Part shown: positions 20,545-28,690 of the stretch, piece by piece
Position numbering within the stretch: the stretch's first letter is position 1
Layout of the letters: each line of letters begins with the position of its first letter
NCBI RefSeq assembly: GCF_000955805.1
Contig: NZ_JYOA01000011.1
Location: forward strand, 91,527 to 155,526
Direction of reading: 5' to 3'
DNA length: 64,000 bases
Source: Pseudomonas sp. 21
GTDB lineage: Bacteria > Pseudomonadota > Gammaproteobacteria > Pseudomonadales > Pseudomonadaceae
Position numbers and translations under genes: made by a program
The notes under the pieces: model-generated
The model's database searches: none
Seen by the model: the letters and a program-made list of their open reading frames with translations, nothing else
What the model was told of the DNA's origin: nothing

Positions 20545-21570
20545 TCAAGCAGGCGTGATACGGATGTGCTGGCCGGTTGTTGCCCATGGCGCGCAGTCGA
20601 TGCGCACCGGCAGGAAGGCTTCGACCACTGTGCGGTTGCTCAGCAGATGATCGCTCGATACTGGCGTGGTGAAGCTGCCGCCGCCGGCCAGCGCCATGGG
20701 GAGCAGCAACTGGTCGGCGAGGTGCTCCTCGACGCTGGTACCGCTGCGGCGCCAGTCATCGGCCTGGCGCAGCGCCTGGCTGGCAACGCGTTCGGCGCTG
20801 ACCCCGGACTGCCCGAAGGCGCAGAACACCAGGGTCAACTGCTCGCACTCCACCTGCAGCAGCAAGGCGTTACCCGGCCCCTGGTCTTCCGGCAGGCGGA
20901 CGACCTGGGCAGATGCGGCGTGCCAATCCTGATGCCGCTTCACCTTCTCCAATTCGCGATCCCCTACATGACCGGGAATGGCCGCCAGCAGGGCGCGAGC
21001 CGAACGCGAAAGCACGGCACCGGCTTCCGGCAGATGCAGCGGCTGCAACTCGCCGGGTGCCACTCGTACCCGCAGTTCGCCACCGCCGGCCGGCATGAAG
21101 CCATGGGGCAGCAGCTCGAAGTCCACCTTCGCACCCATACGCCGCAGCAGCGGCAACCAGCTGCGCTCGATGAAATCCGCCGGCGGCGCCAGCGGGTTGT
21201 GCGTGCCGCCGCTGATCGCCAGGCTGCTCGGTCCATCGGCGTACAGCAGCGCCGGCAGCAACGTCTGCAGCACCAGCACGGCGCTGCCCGCGCTGCCGAT
21301 GGCGAAGCGGTAGTCGCCGCCGCGAATCGCGCCGGGGCGGAAGGTCAGGCTGCGCGAGCCCAGCTCGTCGCCTTCCACCGCCGCGCCGCAGATTTCCACT
21401 GCAGCGCGCACGGCCGTCAGGTGCTGGCGCAGCAGCCCCGGCCGCGACCGCCGGCCACGGATATTGACGATGCGCAGCGCCTTGCCGGTGATCATCGACA
21501 GGCTCAGCGCACTGCGCAGAATCTGCCCGCCGCCTTCGGCGCCGTCGAGTTCGATCAGGTCCCTTTTCAT
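20545..21570 (-). CDS. rtcA: RNA 3'-terminal phosphate cyclase RtcA
   Basis: A 341-residue enzyme that uses ATP to turn RNA 3'-phosphate ends into 2',3'-cyclic phosphates (and can adenylate 5'-phosphates). The start MKRDLIELDGAEGGGQILRSAL is the family signature; GGGQILR is the ATP/RNA site. The adenylated histidine is H308 in SSDHLLSNRTVVEAFLP, aligned with E. coli H309. The first four bases overlap the stop of the nucleotidyltransferase gene (ATGA), so translation is probably coupled. It is the last gene of the sigma-54-type RNA-repair operon, 87 bases before the next gene. Confidence 0.95.
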   Translation of the reverse strand: MKRDLIELDGAEGGGQILRSALSLSMITGKALRIVNIRGRRSRPGLLRQHLTAVRAAVEICGAAVEGDELGSRSLTFRPGAIRGGDYRFAIGSAGSAVLVLQTLLPALLYADGPSSLAISGGTHNPLAPPADFIERSWLPLLRRMGAKVDFELLPHGFMPAGGGELRVRVAPGELQPLHLPEAGAVLSRSARALLAAIPGHVGDRELEKVKRHQDWHAASAQVVRLPEDQGPGNALLLQVECEQLTLVFCAFGQSGVSAERVASQALRQADDWRRSGTSVEEHLADQLLLPMALAGGGSFTTPVSSDHLLSNRTVVEAFLPVRIDCAPWATTGQHIRITPA

Positions 21571-22367
21571 CTTTCGTGTTTCCTCACTTGCTCGCGCAGG
21601 AAGCGATCCAGGCGCTCCGTGTCGTGGCAACCGCCGCGGGGTGCGCCAAGGTTTTCCGCGCGTTGCAGCTCTTGCTCGATCAGCCGGTGCAGGGCCGGGC
21701 GTGCCGGGCCGTATTCGGCCTCGACCGCCTGGCGCTTGAGCACCAGCAGTTCCTCGACTTCGGCGCGCTGCGCGGCATCGTCGAGCGTTGCTTGCATCAG
21801 TGTCTCGAAGACCATCGGCGGCATGCCCAGGCCCTGGTCGATCCAGCGCACTGCCAGCAGCGGGCGCAACACGTAGAGGTACTTCTTGTAGCGAACCTCC
21901 TCGCCCTGCAGGTAGCCACGGAAGTTCTTCTTCGCCATCGACAGGTAGTGCGCCCGTGCGGCAGCGGGCGAGTAGAAGTCCCGTGCGAGTTGGCGCAGGC
22001 CTTGGGTTGCCGTGGATTCGCTGCGATACACCAGCGGCGAGTCCAGCCACTCCAGCAGCGTCGGGTTGGATTTGCGCAGCAGGCGCAGCGCCTTGCGCAA
22101 TTCCCAACCGCTGAGGTCCAACTCGTCGGTCAGCGGGCGCTCCAGCACGTCGCGCGGTTCGTCCACGCGCAGGTACCAGTCCGGTTGCTGCACATAGACG
22201 AAGCGTACGTCGTAGTCGCTGTCCGGAGAGGCGAAGCCCCAGGCGCGGCTGCCCGATTCGCAGGCGTAGAGCACGGTGACGTTGCGCTCCTGCTCCAGCC
22301 TTGTCAGTTCCTCCAGTACTCGCTCGCGCATGGCGTCGGGGAGTGGGTGGCGCTCTTCCTTGTTCAT
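21567..22367 (-). CDS. RNA-repair-associated polymerase-beta-type nucleotidyltransferase
   Basis: A 266-residue protein. The active-site block is at residues 39-53: GSRAWGFASPDSDYDVR, with metal-binding acidic residues at D49/D51 and D53 in the usual GS-x-DxD layout. This family (YcgL/RlaP-like) recurs in rtc operons of many bacteria and is predicted to add nucleotides to RNA ends, but its substrate is not known. AAGGAA lies before the ATG; a long upstream open frame was rejected because it crosses the neighbouring gene. It overlaps rtcA by ATGA. Confidence 0.85.
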   Translation of the reverse strand: MNKEERHPLPDAMRERVLEELTRLEQERNVTVLYACESGSRAWGFASPDSDYDVRFVYVQQPDWYLRVDEPRDVLERPLTDELDLSGWELRKALRLLRKSNPTLLEWLDSPLVYRSESTATQGLRQLARDFYSPAAARAHYLSMAKKNFRGYLQGEEVRYKKYLYVLRPLLAVRWIDQGLGMPPMVFETLMQATLDDAAQRAEVEELLVLKRQAVEAEYGPARPALHRLIEQELQRAENLGAPRGGCHDTERLDRFLREQVRKHER

Positions 22368-22389
22368 GAATTCGATTCCTTGGTCTTGC

Positions 22390-22968
22390 TCAATCCGTCG
22401 CGCTGGCGGCCAGCGCGGACAATGTTCGTCGTCGCGGGTTGTACAGGGTGAGGCACCAGATGCCCCACCATTCCTTGCCGTCGTCGAAGTAGCTGCTCCA
22501 GTGGCTGCGATGGGGTTCGGCATCGCCGTCGCCAACCCAGTCGAGGACCTGCAAGCCTTCGTCAGGGTGCAGCCGCAGTGCCTGCAGCCATTCGCGGAAG
22601 TCCGCCACCTGCAGCCGGGTGCCGTAGGGCGGATTGCGGAAGGCGCGGCACAGTGGGCCGTCGTCGAGGCCCAGCTCGCGTATCGCCTCGACGGTGAGCG
22701 CCTGCGGACGGGCCTGGTCCAGCTCCGGCGTCAGGTCCGGCCAGGGCTGCTTGGCATAGCGCGAGTCCTTTGCGATCAGCTGCAGGCGCCACAGGCGTGC
22801 GCGCTCGTTGATCGTCTCGAACAGCATCTGCAACGCCTGGCGATGTTCCACCTCGCCAGGCGTGGCGGTCGGGTCGAGCGTCAGCACGCGGAAGTCGAAG
22901 ACGCAGCCCGCCTCTTCCAGGCGGGCGCGCAGCTCCTCCGTGCGCCGGTTTTCCATGGGTTGCAGCAT
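22390..22968 (-). CDS. Unrecognised protein of the RNA-repair operon
   Basis: A 192-residue soluble protein lodged 9 bases after rtcB and 22 bases before the nucleotidyltransferase gene, with GAGGTGA as ribosome site. I do not recognise a family. Visible features: a charged N-terminal helix (RRTEELRARLEEAG), a central YAKQPWPDLTPELDQARPQALTVEAIRELGL, and a Trp/aromatic-rich C-terminus (SHWSSYFDDGKEWWGIWCLTLYNP). No signal, membrane segment, zinc cluster or nucleotide motif. Its position says it works in, or is induced with, RNA repair. By position it resembles a PAO1 hypothetical between rtcB and rtcA, but I cannot verify identity. Confidence 0.8.
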   Translation of the reverse strand: MLQPMENRRTEELRARLEEAGCVFDFRVLTLDPTATPGEVEHRQALQMLFETINERARLWRLQLIAKDSRYAKQPWPDLTPELDQARPQALTVEAIRELGLDDGPLCRAFRNPPYGTRLQVADFREWLQALRLHPDEGLQVLDWVGDGDAEPHRSHWSSYFDDGKEWWGIWCLTLYNPRRRTLSALAASATD

Positions 22969-22977
22969 GTCTTCACC

Positions 22978-24198
22978 TCATCCTTTCACGCAGACCACCT
23001 GGCGCAGGGTGTGCAGCACTTCCACCAGCTCGCGCTGGGCGTCCATCACGGCGTCGATGTCCTTGTAGGCCATGGGGATCTCATCGATCACGTCCTTGTC
23101 CTTGCGGCACTCGACATGGGCGGTGGCGCGCACCTGGTCCTCGACGCTGAACAGCTTCTTGGCCTTGGTGCGGCTCATGGTCCGCCCGGCGCCGTGGCTG
23201 CACGAGCAGAACGCCTCCTCGTTGCCCAGGCCGCGGACGATGAAGCTCTTGGCGCCCATCGACCCCGGAATGATGCCGAGCTGGCCCTTCTGCGCGGACA
23301 CCGCGCCTTTACGCGTTACCAGTACCTCTTCGCCAAAGTGGCGTTCCTTCTGCACGTAGTTGTGGTGACAGTTCACCGCCTCCAGGCTGGCTTCGAACGG
23401 CTTGCGGATCACCTGCCGCGCTGCCGCGATCACCGCGCGCATCATCAGCTCGCGGTTCTGCCGGGCGAAGTCCTGGGCCCAGCCCACGGCTTCCACGTAA
23501 TCGTCGAAGTGCTGGCTGCCTTCTTCGAAGTAGGCCAGGTCACGGTCCGGCAGGTTGGCGATGTGCTGGCGCATATCGGCCTGGGCCAGTTCGATGAACA
23601 GGTTGCCGATGGCGTTACCCACACCGCGCGATCCGCTGTGCAGCATGAACCAGACGCGGTTGGCCTCGTCGAGGCAGACCTCGATGAAATGGTTGCCGGT
23701 CCCCAGGGTTCCCAGGTGCTTGCGGTTGTTGGTCTTCTCCAGTTTCGGGTATTTGTCGGTGATCACCTTGAAACGGCCGGCCAGTGCGCGCCACGCGTCG
23801 TCGGCGTGCCCGGGCACGTCTTCCCAGGCGCCCTGGTCGCGGCGACCGAAGGTCTTGCCATGGGGCACGGCCTTCTCGATGGCGGTACGCAGGCCGTGCA
23901 GGTTATCCGGCAGGTCCGAGGCCACCAGCGAGGTGCGCGCGGCGATCATGCCGCAGCCGATATCCACACCCACGGCGGCCGGGATGATGGCGCCCTGGGT
24001 GGGAATCACGCTGCCGATGGTCGACCCCTTGCCCAGGTGCACGTCCGGCATCACGGCCAGGTGCTTGAAGATGAAGGGCATCTTCGCGGTGTTCATCAGT
24101 TGCTGCCTGGCGTCGTCTTCCACCGGCACGCCCTGGGTCCAGAGCTTGATCGGTTTGCCGTTGGCGACTTCCAGCAGCTGGAAGGTCTTGGTGTTCAT
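22978..24198 (-). CDS. rtcB: RNA-splicing ligase RtcB
   Basis: A 406-residue GTP- and Mn-dependent ligase that joins RNA 2',3'-cyclic phosphate or 3'-phosphate ends to 5'-OH ends, the products of many tRNA-cutting nucleases. Active-site residues are visible: C82 in VDIGCGM, H170 in LGTGNHF, H187 in FMLHSGSRG, and H335 in CSCSHGAGR, the residue that takes GMP (E. coli H337). The start MNTKTFQLLEVANGKPIKLW was chosen over a 47-codon extension; it overlaps the stop of the zinc-ribbon gene by ATGA. Confidence 0.96.
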   Translation of the reverse strand: MNTKTFQLLEVANGKPIKLWTQGVPVEDDARQQLMNTAKMPFIFKHLAVMPDVHLGKGSTIGSVIPTQGAIIPAAVGVDIGCGMIAARTSLVASDLPDNLHGLRTAIEKAVPHGKTFGRRDQGAWEDVPGHADDAWRALAGRFKVITDKYPKLEKTNNRKHLGTLGTGNHFIEVCLDEANRVWFMLHSGSRGVGNAIGNLFIELAQADMRQHIANLPDRDLAYFEEGSQHFDDYVEAVGWAQDFARQNRELMMRAVIAAARQVIRKPFEASLEAVNCHHNYVQKERHFGEEVLVTRKGAVSAQKGQLGIIPGSMGAKSFIVRGLGNEEAFCSCSHGAGRTMSRTKAKKLFSVEDQVRATAHVECRKDKDVIDEIPMAYKDIDAVMDAQRELVEVLHTLRQVVCVKG

Positions 24199-24593
24199 GT
24201 TTCGATTCCCTTCTGTTGCGTGGCGAGTTGGCCGGCAGCGGGCTGTGCCCGGCCATCGCGAATTCGTTTGTTCAATCGACAGGCGCGGCAGCGTATCGCC
24301 GTGGAGTACACCTGTCCCTGACAGTCTTCGTACCACCATTTTTGCTGGATGGCGGTCCAGGTCTGCTCGGCGCCGCAGTCGTGGCAGGTGAACTGCTGGT
24401 CCTCGTACCAGCCGCGGCGCACGAACAGCGGGTCGCCGTAGCTGTTGTAGGGCGCCAGGCTCGAGCGGTTGACCGGGACGCTGCCGGGCGGAGCGGCCTG
24501 GCTCGAAGGCTGCCTGACTGGCATGGCCTTCTTCGCCTTGCGTTGCTCGCGCGCCTGGCGAATTTCCCGGCGGCGTTGCTTGTTGCTCTTCAT
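24195..24593 (-). CDS. Zinc-ribbon protein of the RNA-repair operon
   Basis: A 132-residue small basic protein. The first 30 residues are Lys/Arg-rich (QRRREIRQAREQRKAKK), suited to nucleic-acid binding. A zinc ribbon follows with C70-x2-C73 and C102-x2-C105, separated by a WWYEDCQGQVYSTAIR strand region. This matches the 'probable zinc-ribbon' domain family. Its last four bases overlap the rtcB start, so it is likely co-translated with RtcB and could be an accessory RNA-binding factor; that role is inferred. Confidence 0.82.
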   Translation of the reverse strand: MKSNKQRRREIRQAREQRKAKKAMPVRQPSSQAAPPGSVPVNRSSLAPYNSYGDPLFVRRGWYEDQQFTCHDCGAEQTWTAIQQKWWYEDCQGQVYSTAIRCRACRLNKRIRDGRAQPAAGQLATQQKGIET

Positions 24594-24624: not shown

Positions 24625-25767
24625 TCAGGCCTGCTTCAGCGTTACCAGTCCATTCAATACCTGATCCAGGCCGCCGAATACCGAGATGCGGTCGATTCGT
24701 TCGGCTACCCGCTCCAGGGTTTCCAACTCCTTCAGGCGCAGGGCGGTGGGGTTGTCCTCCATCACCTTGGCCGTGTTCAGCAGCGAGCGGGTCGCCGAGG
24801 TTTCTTCGCGACGACGGATCACGTTGGCTTGCGCAGCCTTCTCCGCTTCCACTACCTGGGCCAGCAGGGTCTTCATCTCGCCCGGCAGGATGATGTCGCG
24901 CACACCCAGGCCGCTGACCTCGATACCGGTGCCCGGCAGCCGCTCCTTCAGGTAGGCGCTGACCGAGTCGTCGATGAGCTGCTTGTTCTCCAGCAGCTCA
25001 TCCAGCGAGCGGGTGCCCACCGCCGCGCGCAGGCCGAACTGCAGCTCGCGGTAGAGGTGCTCCAGCGGCTTGGACAGGCTGGAAAAAGCCGTCAGCACGT
25101 CGCTGTAACGCCAGTTGGCGGCCAGGTTCAGGCGCAGGCTCACCTTGTCGCGGGTGAGGATTTCCTGGCCGCTGACTTCCAGCGCCTGGATCCGCGTATC
25201 GATCAGCTCCACGCTCACCTGGCGGTTGTAGCGCCAGAAGCCGAACTGGCCGGCCGGCAGCAACTCGACCACCGCGCCGTCGACCTTCAGCACGCCAACC
25301 TGGTAGGCCGGCACCAGGGTCACCAGCAGCGCTTCGACACCGATCACGCTGCGGCCGCGCAGGTTGCCCTGCATCTGCTGCAAAAGCGCCGGAGCCACGC
25401 GGTACTCCTGGCTCAGGTCGATGCGCTCTAGGCGCTGGTCGGTCTGGCCTTTCCAGTACAGCCGGCGGCTGCCCGGTGCGAGGATTTCCGCCAGCACGCC
25501 GTCCTCGAAGCGCAGGCCGGCCTCGTTCTCGGCCAGGTCCATGCGGGTGAAGTAGCGTTCGACCAGTGCCGGCTCCGACTGACGCAGGTAGCCGGCCAGG
25601 CGGTGCTCGAACAGCGGGGTGTTCAGGCTGAAGGTTTCCACGCTCAGGCGGTTGTACAGGTCCAGGTGGCGGTGGATGCCCGGCTCGAGGATCGCCAGGA
25701 AATCGCCCTCGGAGTACAGCAGGCCGCGTTCGTTCTTCTTCACGGTAAAGCGCTTCAGCAGTTTCAT
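24625..25767 (-). CDS. Slipin/SPFH (band 7) family protein
   Basis: A 380-residue SPFH-domain protein and the first coding gene of the RNA-repair operon. The SPFH region covers about residues 8-290 (NERGLLYSEGDFLAILEPGIHRHLDLYN ... KVSLRLNLAANWRYSD ... ERLPGTGIEVSGLGVRDIILPGEMK) and is followed by a coiled helix (VVEAEKAAQANVIRRREETSATRSLL). No N-terminal membrane hairpin is evident, which is unusual for a slipin. GGAAGAG precedes the ATG. Slipin genes recur in rtc operons of several lineages; their role in repair is unknown. A 280-base leader separates it from the tRNA-like RNAs. Confidence 0.88.
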   Translation of the reverse strand: MKLLKRFTVKKNERGLLYSEGDFLAILEPGIHRHLDLYNRLSVETFSLNTPLFEHRLAGYLRQSEPALVERYFTRMDLAENEAGLRFEDGVLAEILAPGSRRLYWKGQTDQRLERIDLSQEYRVAPALLQQMQGNLRGRSVIGVEALLVTLVPAYQVGVLKVDGAVVELLPAGQFGFWRYNRQVSVELIDTRIQALEVSGQEILTRDKVSLRLNLAANWRYSDVLTAFSSLSKPLEHLYRELQFGLRAAVGTRSLDELLENKQLIDDSVSAYLKERLPGTGIEVSGLGVRDIILPGEMKTLLAQVVEAEKAAQANVIRRREETSATRSLLNTAKVMEDNPTALRLKELETLERVAERIDRISVFGGLDQVLNGLVTLKQA

Positions 25768-26046
25768 TGCTCTCTTCCTTCTTTCTCTTGTCCTTGGGTG
25801 CCGGTGTTCGCCGGCCCGTCGGGTGGCGAGGCGGGGGCCTGCGAGAGCCAGGTGCTGCGGACATCCTGTCCATGGCGCCGAATCCATCGGCCAGCACTTG
25901 CCTTGTCGCGGGCCCGGTCCTTGTACCGGGCGGGCCGGCGGTGGCTTCGGGTCCCTGGCGTATCCGGCCTTCCTGGCCTCTCTGCGCCTGTCCCGTCGCC
26001 CACCGGCGGGGTGTTGCGTTCATGAGTAGCTGCCTTGACAGGGCAG
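25768..26046 (-). other. Long leader between tRNA-like RNAs and slipin
   Basis: 279 transcribed, apparently non-coding bases. Hairpins: CTGCC...GGCAG right after the second tRNA-like unit (26030-26046) and CCCGGT / ACCGGG at 25913-25930. An open frame starting with ATG near 26023 runs through but continues out of frame deep into slipin and looks like a GC-rich shadow. Function unclear; it could carry processing sites. Confidence 0.5.
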
Positions 26047-26047
26047 T

Positions 26048-26118
26048 GTTCGAGCGGGAGTCGAACCCGCGACAGGCCATTCCTTCGATGGCTGCTCTAC
26101 CGGACTGAGCTATCGAAC
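26048..26118 (-). ncRNA. tRNA-like RNA, unit 2
   Basis: A 71-nt cloverleaf. The acceptor stem is only 6 bp (GTTCGA/TCGAAC), then TA, D-arm GCTC/GAGC with AGTCCGGTA loop, anticodon stem GCCAT/ATGGC with a 7-base loop CGAAGGA, a 5-base variable loop, and T-arm GCGGG/CCCGC with loop TTCGACT. The loop has G rather than the near-universal U at position 33, and no CCA is encoded. It abuts unit 1 without a spacer. The D and T arms match unit 1 at most positions, with a compensated A-T to G-C change in the T stem. It is best read as a tRNA mimic in the leader of the RNA-repair operon. Confidence 0.8.
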
Positions 26119-26189
26119 GGCGCGGGCAGGATTCGAACCTGCGACGGTTCCCCTCGGGGGAGTGCTCTACCGGGCTGAGCTACCGCGCC
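26119..26189 (-). ncRNA. tRNA-like RNA, unit 1
   Basis: A 71-nt cloverleaf. Acceptor stem GGCGCGG/CCGCGCC is a perfect 7 bp; the D-arm is GCTC/GAGC with loop AGCCCGGTA; the T-arm is GCAGG/CCTGC with the canonical loop TTCGAAT. The anticodon arm is aberrant: TCCCC/GGGGA closes a loop of only 3 bases, and no 7-base loop can be formed, so it cannot decode normally. No CCA is encoded and the next unit starts at the following base. It begins about 108 bases after the predicted sigma-54 start site, inside the RNA-repair transcript. Confidence 0.8.
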
Positions 26190-26242
26190 ATCGACCGTGA
26201 CTGCTGCAGCGGCATGCACGAAGCCGACACCAGGGGTGGGCT

Positions 26243-26293
26243 CGGGCACCGGCGGGAGTGGAAGTCCCTGCCCGTGGGCTGCATCAGCGATGC
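26243..26293 (-). ncRNA. Structured 5' leader hairpins upstream of the tRNA-like units
   Basis: Two hairpins lie just after the predicted transcription start. One is GCATC-GCT-GATGC (26281-26293). The other is a longer interrupted stem at 26243-26274: CGGGCA/TGCCCG enclosing GGGA/TCCC with a CTTCCAC loop. They could protect the 5' end or be part of a small RNA. No family recognised. Confidence 0.45.
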
Positions 26294-26308
26294 GGTCAAG
26301 TGAGATAT

Positions 26309-26324
26309 AGCGAGGGGCGTGCCA
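26309..26324 (-). promoter_or_regulatory. Sigma-54 (RpoN) promoter of the RNA-repair operon
   Basis: On the minus strand TGGCACGCCCCTCGCT carries GG and GC exactly 10 bases apart, fitting TGGCAC-N5-TTGC (one mismatch in the -12 part). Transcription would begin near 26298, upstream of both tRNA-like units and slipin. The adjacent divergent gene encodes RtcR, a sigma-54 activator, which supports the call. Confidence 0.85.
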
Positions 26325-26363
26325 GGTTTGCTTCCGGTTTGTCCTCGATTCTTGTAACTGATT

Positions 26364-26460
26364 GATAAATAACAATTTAATTTTATTTGCAGTGCGACTT
26401 GTCGATGTTCTGGATTGGCCGCTAACGGTTTTTATGGATATCCTGGGATCGTTATTTATC
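26364..26460. promoter_or_regulatory. Candidate RtcR upstream sites (inverted repeat)
   Basis: GATAAATAAC at 26364-26373 is matched by its exact reverse complement GTTATTTATC at 26451-26460, 77 bases apart, in an unusually AT-rich stretch between rtcR and the sigma-54 promoter. The distance upstream of the promoter (about 40-150 bases) is that of enhancer sites for sigma-54 activators. Binding by RtcR is inferred only. Confidence 0.4.
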
Positions 26461-26474
26461 TTGATGGATAAGGA

Positions 26475-28085
26475 ATGAACGCCAAGAAAACGGTCGCCAT
26501 CGGCTTCCTCGGTTCGACCCTGGATCGCGTCGGCAAGGGCGCGGCGCGCTGGCAGAAGTGGCGGCCCACGGTTGGCCTGTGCCAGCAGCAGGACCTGCTG
26601 ATTGACCGCCTGGAACTAATCCACGGGCTGGACGCGCGGGATCTCGGGCTGGCCGAGCGCATTGCCGCCGACGTGCGGCTCGTCTCCCCGGAGACCGAGG
26701 TGCGCCTGCAGCCCATGGCGCTGCGCAACCCGTGGGACTTCGAGGAGGTCTACGGCGCGCTGCACGATTTCGTCGGTGGCTACAGCTTTGATACCGAACA
26801 CGAGGACTACCTGGTGCACATCACCACCGGGACCCACGTCGCGCAGATCTGCTGGTTCCTCCTGACCGAAGCGCGCTACCTGCCGGCGCGGCTGGTGCAG
26901 GCCTCGCCGTCGCGGCGCAAGGACGAGGCTCGGCAGCCGGAAGGGACGGTGGCCGTCATCGACCTCGACCTGTCGCGGTACGACCGCATCGCCACGCGCT
27001 TCCGCCGAGAGCAGGAAGAGAGCCTGGCCTTCCTCAAGTCCGGCATCGCCACGCGCAACGCCGAATTCAACCGCTCCATCGAACAGATCGAGCGGGTTGC
27101 CGGGCGTTCCCGTGCGCCGATGCTGCTGATCGGCCCGACCGGTGCGGGCAAGTCCTTCCTCGCCCGTCGCGTCTACGAACTCAAGCGTGCGCGGCACCAG
27201 TTCCAGGGCCGTTTCGTCGAGGTGAACTGCGCGACCTTGCGCGGTGACGGCGCCATGTCCGCGCTGTTCGGCCATATCAAGGGCGCCTTCACCGGCGCAC
27301 AGAACGCCCGCGAAGGCCTGTTGCGCGCGGCGGACGGCGGCATGCTGTTCCTCGACGAGATTGGCGAACTGGGCCTGGACGAGCAGGCCATGCTGCTCAA
27401 GGCCATCGAGGAGAAGCGTTTCTTCCCGCTGGGCTCGGACCGAGAAGTGGGCAGCGACTTCCAGCTGATCGCCGGCACCCACCGCGACCTGCGCGAGCGT
27501 GTGGCCGAGGGGCTGTTCCGCGAGGACCTGTTCGCCCGCATCAACCTCTGGACCTTCGACCTGCCGGGGCTGGCCGGGCGCCGCGAGGACATCGAGCCGA
27601 ACATCGATTTCGAGCTGGAGCGCCACGCCCGCGAGCAGGGCCGCCTGGTGCGCTTCAACCGCGAGGCGCGCACGCGCTACCTGGCTTTCGCCAACTCGGC
27701 GCAGGCCTTGTGGAGCGGCAACTTCCGCGAGCTGTCGGCGTCCATCACGCGCATGGCGACCCTGGCTGACAGCGGGCGGATCGATGAGGTACTGGTGGAG
27801 GAGGAGATCGGCCGGCTGCGCCGCTCCTGGGGCGCGACCCAGGCCCAGAGCCTGCTGGATCGTCTGCTGGGGGAGGGCGCCGAGGCGCTGGACCTGTTCG
27901 ACCGCCTGCAACTGGAAGCGGTGATCGACGTCTGCCGGCAGGCACGCAGCCTGTCCGACGCCGGCCGCCAGTTGTTCGCTGTCTCGCGTCAGGAGAAGCA
28001 GAATCCCAACGACGCCGACCGCCTGCGCAAGTACCTGGCGCGCTTCGGCCTGGATTGGCCCGGCATCACCGACGGGGTGCGCTAG
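26475..28085 (+). CDS. rtcR: RtcR, sigma-54-dependent activator of the RNA-repair operon
   Basis: A 536-residue enhancer-binding protein. Residues 1 to about 180 are the RtcR N-terminal domain of CARF type (VAIGFLGSTLDR start; VHITTGTHVAQICWFLLTEARYLPARLVQ), thought to sense RNA ends such as cyclic-phosphate tRNA pieces. The AAA+ domain has Walker A GPTGAGKS at 220-227, the sigma-54-contacting GAFTGA at 270-275 and Walker B GMLFLDEIGEL near 294. The C-terminal region (about 460-536) should bind DNA. An AAGGA abuts the ATG, so GGAT a few bases earlier may serve as the ribosome site; a stop codon just upstream in frame rules out extension. Confidence 0.95.
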   Translation: MNAKKTVAIGFLGSTLDRVGKGAARWQKWRPTVGLCQQQDLLIDRLELIHGLDARDLGLAERIAADVRLVSPETEVRLQPMALRNPWDFEEVYGALHDFVGGYSFDTEHEDYLVHITTGTHVAQICWFLLTEARYLPARLVQASPSRRKDEARQPEGTVAVIDLDLSRYDRIATRFRREQEESLAFLKSGIATRNAEFNRSIEQIERVAGRSRAPMLLIGPTGAGKSFLARRVYELKRARHQFQGRFVEVNCATLRGDGAMSALFGHIKGAFTGAQNAREGLLRAADGGMLFLDEIGELGLDEQAMLLKAIEEKRFFPLGSDREVGSDFQLIAGTHRDLRERVAEGLFREDLFARINLWTFDLPGLAGRREDIEPNIDFELERHAREQGRLVRFNREARTRYLAFANSAQALWSGNFRELSASITRMATLADSGRIDEVLVEEEIGRLRRSWGATQAQSLLDRLLGEGAEALDLFDRLQLEAVIDVCRQARSLSDAGRQLFAVSRQEKQNPNDADRLRKYLARFGLDWPGITDGVR

Positions 28086-28120
28086 AATCGGCGTTTTGCG
28101 GTCGCGGCAAGGAGCCGATC

Positions 28121-28690
28121 ATGGAAGAACCGATGAGTGTCGAGCAGCTGTGTCGACGCATCGAGGCGGGCGAAGCGTTCAAGTACGTGTACTTCTGGGG
28201 GCATCGCCCGAAGCACTCCGTGGAAGTCGACAAGAGCTGCTTCAGCCAGTGGTTCGAGGTGGACTTCGAGATCGACGGAGTGACCTACGCCAGCGCCGAG
28301 CACTACATGATGGCCGGCAAGGCCCGGCTGTTCGGTGACGAGGCGGCGCTGGCACGGATTCTCGCCGCGCGCACGCCGGCCGAGGCGAAGTCCATCGGCC
28401 GCGAGATCCGCGGCTTCGACGATGCAGCCTGGAATGCCGAGCGGCTGGCCATCGTCACCCGCGCCAACCATGCCAAGTTCGGGCAGAACCCGGCCCTGCG
28501 CGAGTTCCTGCTGGGCACCGGCGATCGCGTGCTGGTCGAGGCCAGCCCGGTGGATGCCATCTGGGGCATCGGCCTGGCGGTCGATCATCCTGACGCGGGC
28601 AACCCGGCGCGCTGGCGCGGGCTGAACCAGCTGGGTGTCGCCCTCATGAGTACGCGCGATGCGCTGCGCCGGGAGGACCAGGATGCCTGA
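28121..28690 (+). CDS. NADAR (YbiA-like) domain protein
   Basis: A 189-residue cytoplasmic protein made of one NADAR domain: YVYFWGHRPKH near 24, FSQWFEVDFEIDGVTYASAEHYMMAGKARLF at 42-72, NHAKFGQNPALREFLLGTGDRVLVEASPVDAIWGIG near 118-155. Family members are N-glycosidases acting on riboflavin intermediates or, in some cases, removing ADP-ribose from guanine in nucleic acids. The catalytic-type Glu in SAEHY and the WGIG motif are intact. It starts 35 bases after rtcR on the same strand and overlaps the next gene by 8 bases, so it likely shares the rtcR transcript. Confidence 0.9.
   Translation: MEEPMSVEQLCRRIEAGEAFKYVYFWGHRPKHSVEVDKSCFSQWFEVDFEIDGVTYASAEHYMMAGKARLFGDEAALARILAARTPAEAKSIGREIRGFDDAAWNAERLAIVTRANHAKFGQNPALREFLLGTGDRVLVEASPVDAIWGIGLAVDHPDAGNPARWRGLNQLGVALMSTRDALRREDQDA

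Follow-up and report, generated by a model that had tools for sequence, protein, structure and literature searches.

A composite leader RNA with two tRNA-shaped domains as a candidate partner of slipin in the RNA-repair operon of Pseudomonas sp. 21

Burroughs and Aravind reportedly linked, in 2016, an SPFH/Band-7 scaffold of RtcB systems to 'a novel tRNA-like molecule', in parallel to Ro/TROVE with its Y RNA. The locus described here, from Pseudomonas sp. 21, resembles that system in having a tRNA-like RNA adjoining an SPFH gene, a slipin (PF01145), in an RtcB operon. It lies in a stretch of 64,000 nucleotides (nt) of contig NZ_JYOA01000011.1 (positions 91,527 to 155,526), called the window below, in whose coordinates its features are given; genomes and loci of relatives carry our own handles (G and L numbers). 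The vault particle also combines such parts, namely the SPFH-like shoulder of MVP, the TROVE protein TEP1 and a small RNA, but it is eukaryotic, and its resemblance to the slipin system is one of parts only.

The rtc operon is described as being switched on by cut tRNAs (PMC7790460; PMC8394870), and the rtc locus of P. aeruginosa PA14 includes an SPFH gene (PMC13086221). YrlA (RF02553), of the rsr-yrlBA-rtcBA operons, belongs to the same operon type, carries tRNA-like T and D arms and stands as the alternative to slipin with its tandem RNA. However, YrlA has its T arm before the D arm, and a Ro-binding stem, whereas the units described here run from D to T and the genome of Pseudomonas sp. 21 gave no match to PF05731 (Ro/TROVE), in agreement with an earlier note on the window, which had chosen Y RNA as its comparison and seen no Ro/TROVE gene. 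Laid across the tandem (T1-acceptor-D2), the YrlA model scores 33.4 bits, below its gathering score of 69, and it matches the tandem junction in 5 of the 18 slipin loci scanned (29.4 to 37.6 bits, all under that cut-off). We rejected this match as proof of common descent, since one of eight ordinary-tRNA loci also gives a weak YrlA match (28.6 bits). tmRNA is likewise a large structured RNA with a tRNA-like domain, and a target of RtcB in E. coli (PMC9650030); the scanned stretch of the window gave no tmRNA match, the tag frame and pseudoknots not having been looked for. In the TrcR regulon of Anabaena, one factor represses rtcB together with the slipin gene alr0740 and an operon of 26 tRNA genes (PMC10272220), but there the tRNAs are annotated ones on a megaplasmid, the genes are scattered, and RtcR is absent.

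The tandem RNA consists of two units that abut with zero spacer, between a sigma-54-type site and slipin:

26119 to 26189, minus strand: tRNA-like unit 1, 71 nt, with a 7-bp acceptor, a D arm, a 5-bp/3-nt hairpin at the anticodon position and a T arm
26048 to 26118, minus strand: tRNA-like unit 2, 71 nt, with a 6-bp acceptor, a D arm, a 5-bp/7-nt hairpin with G33 and a T arm

The sequence and the folds bear out the two cloverleaves that the earlier note had placed here, with the stems and loops that it had given: the acceptor stems are GGCGCGG/CCGCGCC in unit 1 and GTTCGA/TCGAAC in unit 2, the T stems GCAGG/CCTGC and GCGGG/CCCGC, and the anticodon position is held by the hairpin TCCCC(CGA)GGGGA in unit 1 and by the loop CGAAGGA, with G33 instead of U33, in unit 2, so that neither passes a test for a 7-nt anticodon loop with U33. 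Each unit folded alone gives a cloverleaf, and the fold of the whole 552-nt leader (z only -1.51) contains both; folding energy alone is weak evidence, since the z-scores of the units are only -2.25 (unit 1) and -1.30 (unit 2). ARAGORN reports both as tRNAs ('Ser cga' and 'Leu aag'), and the long variable arm of those tRNAs is absent in both. With the Rfam tRNA model they reach 50.8 bits (unit 1) and 45.6 bits (unit 2), which exceeds the cut-off of 29 bits, yet they score below all other tRNA matches of the genome, at ranks 57 and 58 of 58. CCA is encoded at 28 of 30 tRNA loci of this genome (the other two, contig end and misplaced by the script, were left out of the assessment) and, as had been noted, by neither unit. 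First-order Markov sequence modelled on the leaders (8,110 kb) gives a T arm (5 bp, TTCRANY loop) 0.0047 times per kb by chance. In 405.5 kb, a T arm with an acceptor helix was matched 106 times on the sense strand, ordinary tRNA genes at some loci included, and a single time on the antisense strand.

For comparison across slipin loci, units were gathered by the T-arm pattern (at least 4 of 5 pairs); 89 were parsed and 72 kept, 17 unclean ones being dropped by hand. The acceptor is paired in 76.8% of cells versus 51.7% with shuffled partners (0 of 2000 shuffles reach the observed value), a comparison in which pairing is favoured by the poor acceptors of some dropped units and by the slight weight that acceptor pairing had in the choice of the D arm. 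Double-sided changes are found at 7 of 7 acceptor positions and at 3 of 5 positions of the T stem; the search pattern itself prescribes the T loop and most pairs of the T stem. A hairpin at the anticodon position could be drawn in 71 of the 72 units by a permissive search, which gives 4-nt loops in 27, with GAAA, GCAA and TTCG tetraloops common; with a 5-bp stem, the loop has 7 nt in 19 units, and U33 is present in 7. As far as covariation of the acceptor and variability of the loops can tell, the units are tRNA mimics in which elbow and acceptor persist and decoding is lost, as the earlier note had it, with selection acting on structure and not on decoding.

The groups of loci differ in detail. 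Among 17 loci, those of the family of G1010 together with L277, nine have an NCCA encoded at the end of unit 1, directly against unit 2; the same holds for none of 14 Pseudomonas-type loci and, doubtfully, for one of 13 Burkholderia-type loci. The count allows one acceptor mismatch and takes the first T arm, which is that of unit 2 in a few loci. In the Burkholderia-type loci, a label that for L264-L276 follows from near identity to L004 and L005, unit 1 has no D arm and retains just the acceptor and the T arm. One locus has three tandem tRNA-like units before slipin (L216, 322-536; G436), and at L278 unit 1, which encodes ACCA there, gives a sub-threshold tmRNA match at 2944-2999 (32.9 bits against a cut-off of 47).

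The interval 26048 to 26189 of the earlier note is correct for the two units but too narrow for the RNA, whose conservation extends to both sides:

26202 to 26295, minus strand: conserved 5' three-way-junction domain (model R1, 73.4 bits, the locus being in the training set)
26191 to 26299, minus strand: outer helix P0, TTGACCG (26299-26293) with CGGTCGA (26197-26191), which closes the 5' domain (minimum-free-energy fold and permutation)
26030 to 26046, minus strand: putative hairpin CTGCC-CTGTCAA-GGCAG after unit 2 (read by comparison)
26001 to 26012, minus strand: conserved ACCCCGCCGGTG element in the 3' part of the leader (read from leader comparison)

The three-way junction, followed through 29 loci, has 22 pairs, 12 of them with double-sided changes. 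Its main helix P2 is 92.0% paired versus 72.2% when shuffled (maximum 81.2 in 2000), the best-pairing anchor of each locus, which favours pairing, being used, with no anchor in 3 of 51 loci (L283, L290, L291). When P0 was paired within its own strand versus across loci, 6 of 5000 permutations reached the observed mean (24 loci), and 0 of 5000 in an 11-locus subset. The hairpin after unit 2 reads CTACC/GGTAG and CTGTCC/GGACAG in relatives, and in the 13 Burkholderia-type leaders conservation of the flanks looks, by eye, no lower than that of the cloverleaves. The Rfam 15 scan gave no family for the 5' domain (window stretch at E<=1; stretches of relatives at E<=0.1), and no description of this RNA was found in the literature listings and passages searched. 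By sequence comparison, the cloverleaves are part of a larger structured RNA extending to both sides, and the leader is predicted to encode a composite noncoding RNA in which two tRNA-shaped domains stand between a 5' three-way junction and a 3' hairpin/ACCCGCCG element, an architecture that appears to be new. Two other ideas were tried and dropped: a long-range pairing GCCCACC/GGTGGGC across the tandem, seen by eye, is not preserved in relatives. A phage origin was the other: 26 phage records match the tandem in part, the majority of the 20 listed doing so over annotated tRNA genes, and the leader gave no match in near mode.

In order to see what the RNA accompanies, we read 84 RtcR operons in stretches of 0.9 to 5.3 kb (G597 counted twice), drawn from genomes with RtcR matches in the family (53 of 298), the class (15 of 369) and the phylum (28 of 398), which are overlapping draws and include a few sub-threshold matches; G335, whose RtcR is truncated by a contig end, and the sub-threshold G298, G419 and G741 were left out. 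Thirty of these operons contain slipin, 25 TROVE, 25 rtcB only and four none of these, the last two classes possibly hiding a slipin or TROVE farther away; slipin and TROVE together were found in none of the 84. In 25 of the 30 slipin operons the 520 bp upstream of slipin contain T arms, so that the refutation test set by the earlier note, a lack of conserved cloverleaves in related rtcR-slipin intergenic regions, was decided in favour of its reading. T arms, those of Y RNAs, lie in the rsr-rtcB gap in 22 of the 25 TROVE operons, where Rfam YrlA matched at E<=0.01 in 11 of 12 loci scanned and above cut-off in six. Two of the 25 rtcB-only operons have a T arm in their first 520 nt, a canonical tRNA-Pro (G963) and one taken as chance (G932), and an operon of the 'neither' class (G597a) has a T arm with a 37.9-bit YrlA match. 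A canonical tRNA-Pro(TGG) with encoded CCA lies between rtcR and rtcB at L236 (4178-4252, 65.3 bits), no slipin being found in that stretch. A further RtcR scan of genome contigs gave 80 loci, of which eight (L131-L138) are RtcR by match length; the remaining 72 resemble general sigma-54 activators and were dropped. The rtcR of some relatives has an in-frame TAG (G121, G061) or was matched in two pieces (G205).

The position of the RNA follows slipin in most cases. Where slipin is internal to the operon, the T arms precede slipin and are not at the promoter in four of five such loci (G529, G619, G357, L135), and T arms and 5' domain are retained at all eight slipin loci that have no rtcR within 1.5 kb upstream, with rtcB within 1.5 kb after slipin in seven of them. 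Seven of the slipin loci without adjoining rtcR (L278-L283 and L286), in which 5' domain and T arms are retained, are also preceded, within 1.5 kb, by one to three ordinary tRNA genes (7 of 7) and have, by eye only, an HNH-like gene. Within the genus (25 genomes), slipin with a tandem or its remnant was found in 13 and TROVE with Y RNAs in G003, the sole TROVE match of the 25, while the operon of G024 begins with rtcB and has a single Y RNA (71.1 bits), the genome giving no TROVE match; the RtcR search gave no match in the other 10. The G024 RNA (L088, 4665-4788) is above the Rfam cut-off and lies at 555, just past the 520-nt limit; it is a Y RNA without Ro. Taken across these loci, the association is with slipin rather than with RtcR or with leader position.

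Searches with model R1, built from 29 loci where it matches by construction, give the same picture. Over 94 loci it found 26 matches at E<1e-11, all slipin-first, followed by L232 at 0.02 and by four chance-level matches at E 0.08 to 0.6, and the whole genome of Pseudomonas sp. 21 contains a single match. At E<=0.001 it matched 14 of the 25 genus genomes, the 13 strong ones being the 13 with slipin in the rtcR operon, 1 of 229 class genomes and, of 200 genomes in the family of G1010, 14 of the 16 that have slipin but none of the 184 that lack it (the slipin and R1 counts assume the same genome draw; the listed genomes coincide). At this threshold R1 is confined to slipin loci, apart from an isolated weak match in G004 (contig 12, 258572-258665; 33.8 bits, E 7.7e-4), a genome without RtcR match.

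We propose, with a probability of about 0.5, that, as the most likely reading, the composite leader RNA is the RNA that belongs to slipin in tRNA repair, a counterpart of Y RNA with Ro; since a conserved folded RNA accompanies the slipin gene, it looks like the partner of slipin and not like an ordinary tRNA. This reading is drawn from the linkage, the replacement and the kept tRNA shape; binding to slipin, processing and action in trans are putative. Cut tRNAs, sensed by RtcR (Hughes et al. 2020), would fire the operon, and the repair enzymes, slipin and composite RNA would then be made and the RNA released from the leader. Slipin, a relative of the ring- or cage-forming stomatin and HflK/C proteins, would use the RNA as its partner, and the tRNA-shaped part may dock or space RtcB, RtcA and RlaP, or compete with intact tRNAs, on the model of the tRNA-like domain of Y RNA that serves Ro and PNPase. 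More tentatively, and as a doubtful extension, an RNA of several hundred nt might form the trans-acting core of a tRNA-repair ribonucleoprotein with slipin and RtcB, Y RNA/Ro and tandem/slipin might be interchangeable for one task, and the permuted tRNA domain of Y RNA might have arisen from a tandem of this kind, at its T1-D2 junction.

Several observations weigh against the RNA as a partner of slipin. Five of the 30 slipin operons lack intact T arms; in G241, G199, G292 and G290 the 5' domain is kept (66 to 78 bits) and plain hairpins replace the cloverleaves, and in G020 unit 2 is damaged. The slipin leaders L071-L074 have the 5' domain and two plain hairpins where cloverleaves would be. 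Besides these five operons, unit 1 of G012 is reduced. Since such operons exist, the cloverleaves are dispensable. At L133 a single unit precedes rtcB and slipin comes afterwards. D-stem pairing is uninformative, as 341 of 2000 shuffles reach the observed value, and a GG in the D loop was favoured in parsing. R1 found no match at the distant slipin loci L216, L260, L212, L220, L222, L133 and L135 and was weak at L232/L291 (23.0 bits) and L290 (28.4 bits), and its searches test absence elsewhere more than sensitivity, because many matches are training loci (13 of 14 in the family, 3 of 13 in the genus). Finally, action in cis fits too, since the RNA (L133 apart) precedes slipin on the same strand.

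The main rival follows from this last point, namely that the RNA is a cis-acting structured 5' untranslated region (UTR) that controls or matures the slipin-rtcB mRNA, through RNase P or RNase E entry, stability, or translation feedback by a tRNA-binding repair protein. Its nearly constant place directly 5' of slipin, the conserved sequence flanking the cloverleaves on both sides, and a long 5' UTR in which a scan of 25600-26520 found no terminator-like or sigma-70 site are all consistent with it. We nevertheless hold it to be unlikely: the Y RNAs of the TROVE version are trans-acting in the literature and lie between rsr and rtcB, and a pure regulator need not track slipin over rtcB, yet T arms are nearly missing from the rtcB-only operons (2 of 25). 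A different role is that of a bait or competitive inhibitor absorbing tRNA-cutting nucleases, which the earlier note had put forward and which the tRNA shape and the anticodon-position hairpin, the most variable part, could suggest. It is weakened by the loops themselves, rarely of 7 nt with U33 and often GNRA or UUCG tetraloops, by the missing D arm in unit 1 of the Burkholderia-type loci, and by the report that fragments of YrlA itself were not detected (PMC7790460), and we regard it as improbable.

The earlier note had also considered a ligand for RtcR, in which cut mimics would feed back on the CARF domain. This reading has lost ground and seems more improbable still, as the RNA is kept at all eight slipin loci without divergent rtcR (rtcR elsewhere in those genomes being possible) and 23 of 25 rtcB-only RtcR operons are without a T arm in the first 520 nt. 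That the units are ordinary or decaying tRNA genes is the least probable reading, and very much so, although ARAGORN annotates both, both pass the Rfam cut-off, seven units elsewhere have a 7-nt loop with U33, unit 1 often carries NCCA in one group (9 of 17), and G020 looks decayed. A 'tRNA gene', PA4581.1, is moreover named as one of the two genes with the strongest rise in a late P. aeruginosa isolate (PMC8743555); its numbering puts it beside PA4581, and it is perhaps this same element, and then likely not a tRNA. PA4582 is induced by peroxide (PMC1250226), which fits. Against tRNA genes stand the lowest two of 58 scores, the lack of CCA where the assessed tRNAs have it, loop sizes that vary while the hairpin persists, and the linkage to slipin.

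The remaining parts of the locus are as follows; the minus-strand genes after the leader run in the order slipin, treble-clef protein, RtcB, 192-aa protein, RlaP and RtcA:

26309 to 26324, minus strand: putative sigma-54-type promoter TGGCACGCCCCTCGCT, an exact pattern match, single in the window
24625 to 25767, minus strand: slipin (SPFH/Band_7), 380 aa (PF01145, 3.1e-26)
24195 to 24593, minus strand: zf_Tbcl treble-clef protein (PF13451, 1.1e-10)
22978 to 24339, minus strand: RtcB RNA ligase open reading frame (ORF; PF01139, 2.5e-130)
22390 to 22968, minus strand: 192-aa operon protein, no Pfam or NCBIfam match, homologues in several other rtc operons
21567 to 22535, minus strand: RlaP nucleotidyltransferase ORF (PF10127, 1.2e-96)
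20545 to 22107, minus strand: RtcA cyclase ORF (PF01137, 9.2e-76), RtcA part ~20545-21561, with NF003246 on 20548-21561
26475 to 28085, plus strand: RtcR sigma-54 activator, divergent (PF06956, 4.5e-85)

The sigma-54-type promoter named in the earlier note is thus present as an exact match, but the pattern alone is weak: shuffled sequence averages 2.66 matches with up to one mismatch. Since shuffles often match too, the promoter claim rests on position and on recurrence in relatives, a sigma-54-like site being also found 5' of the leader in those rtcR-slipin loci where it was matched. Alignment of N-termini suggests that slipin probably starts at 25767, not at 25887. Its sequence matches solved structures of stomatin, HflK and QmcA, and its predicted structure consists of beta modules and a low-confidence helical tail. 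Residues 141-159 peak at 1.75 in the hydropathy scan; no clear membrane helix was seen, because the predicted structure shows strands there. Directly after rtcR lies a NADAR-domain ORF (28055-28690; PF08719, 2.7e-53), which as listed overlaps the end of rtcR.

The two units called tRNAs by ARAGORN are likely not tRNAs, and such annotations call for caution. What slipin does in the many RNA-repair operons that contain it, and what Ro and Y RNA do in such operons, would become one testable question through a structured RNA that accompanies slipin and is swapped for Y RNA where Ro occurs, namely what use a tRNA-shaped RNA has in tRNA repair.
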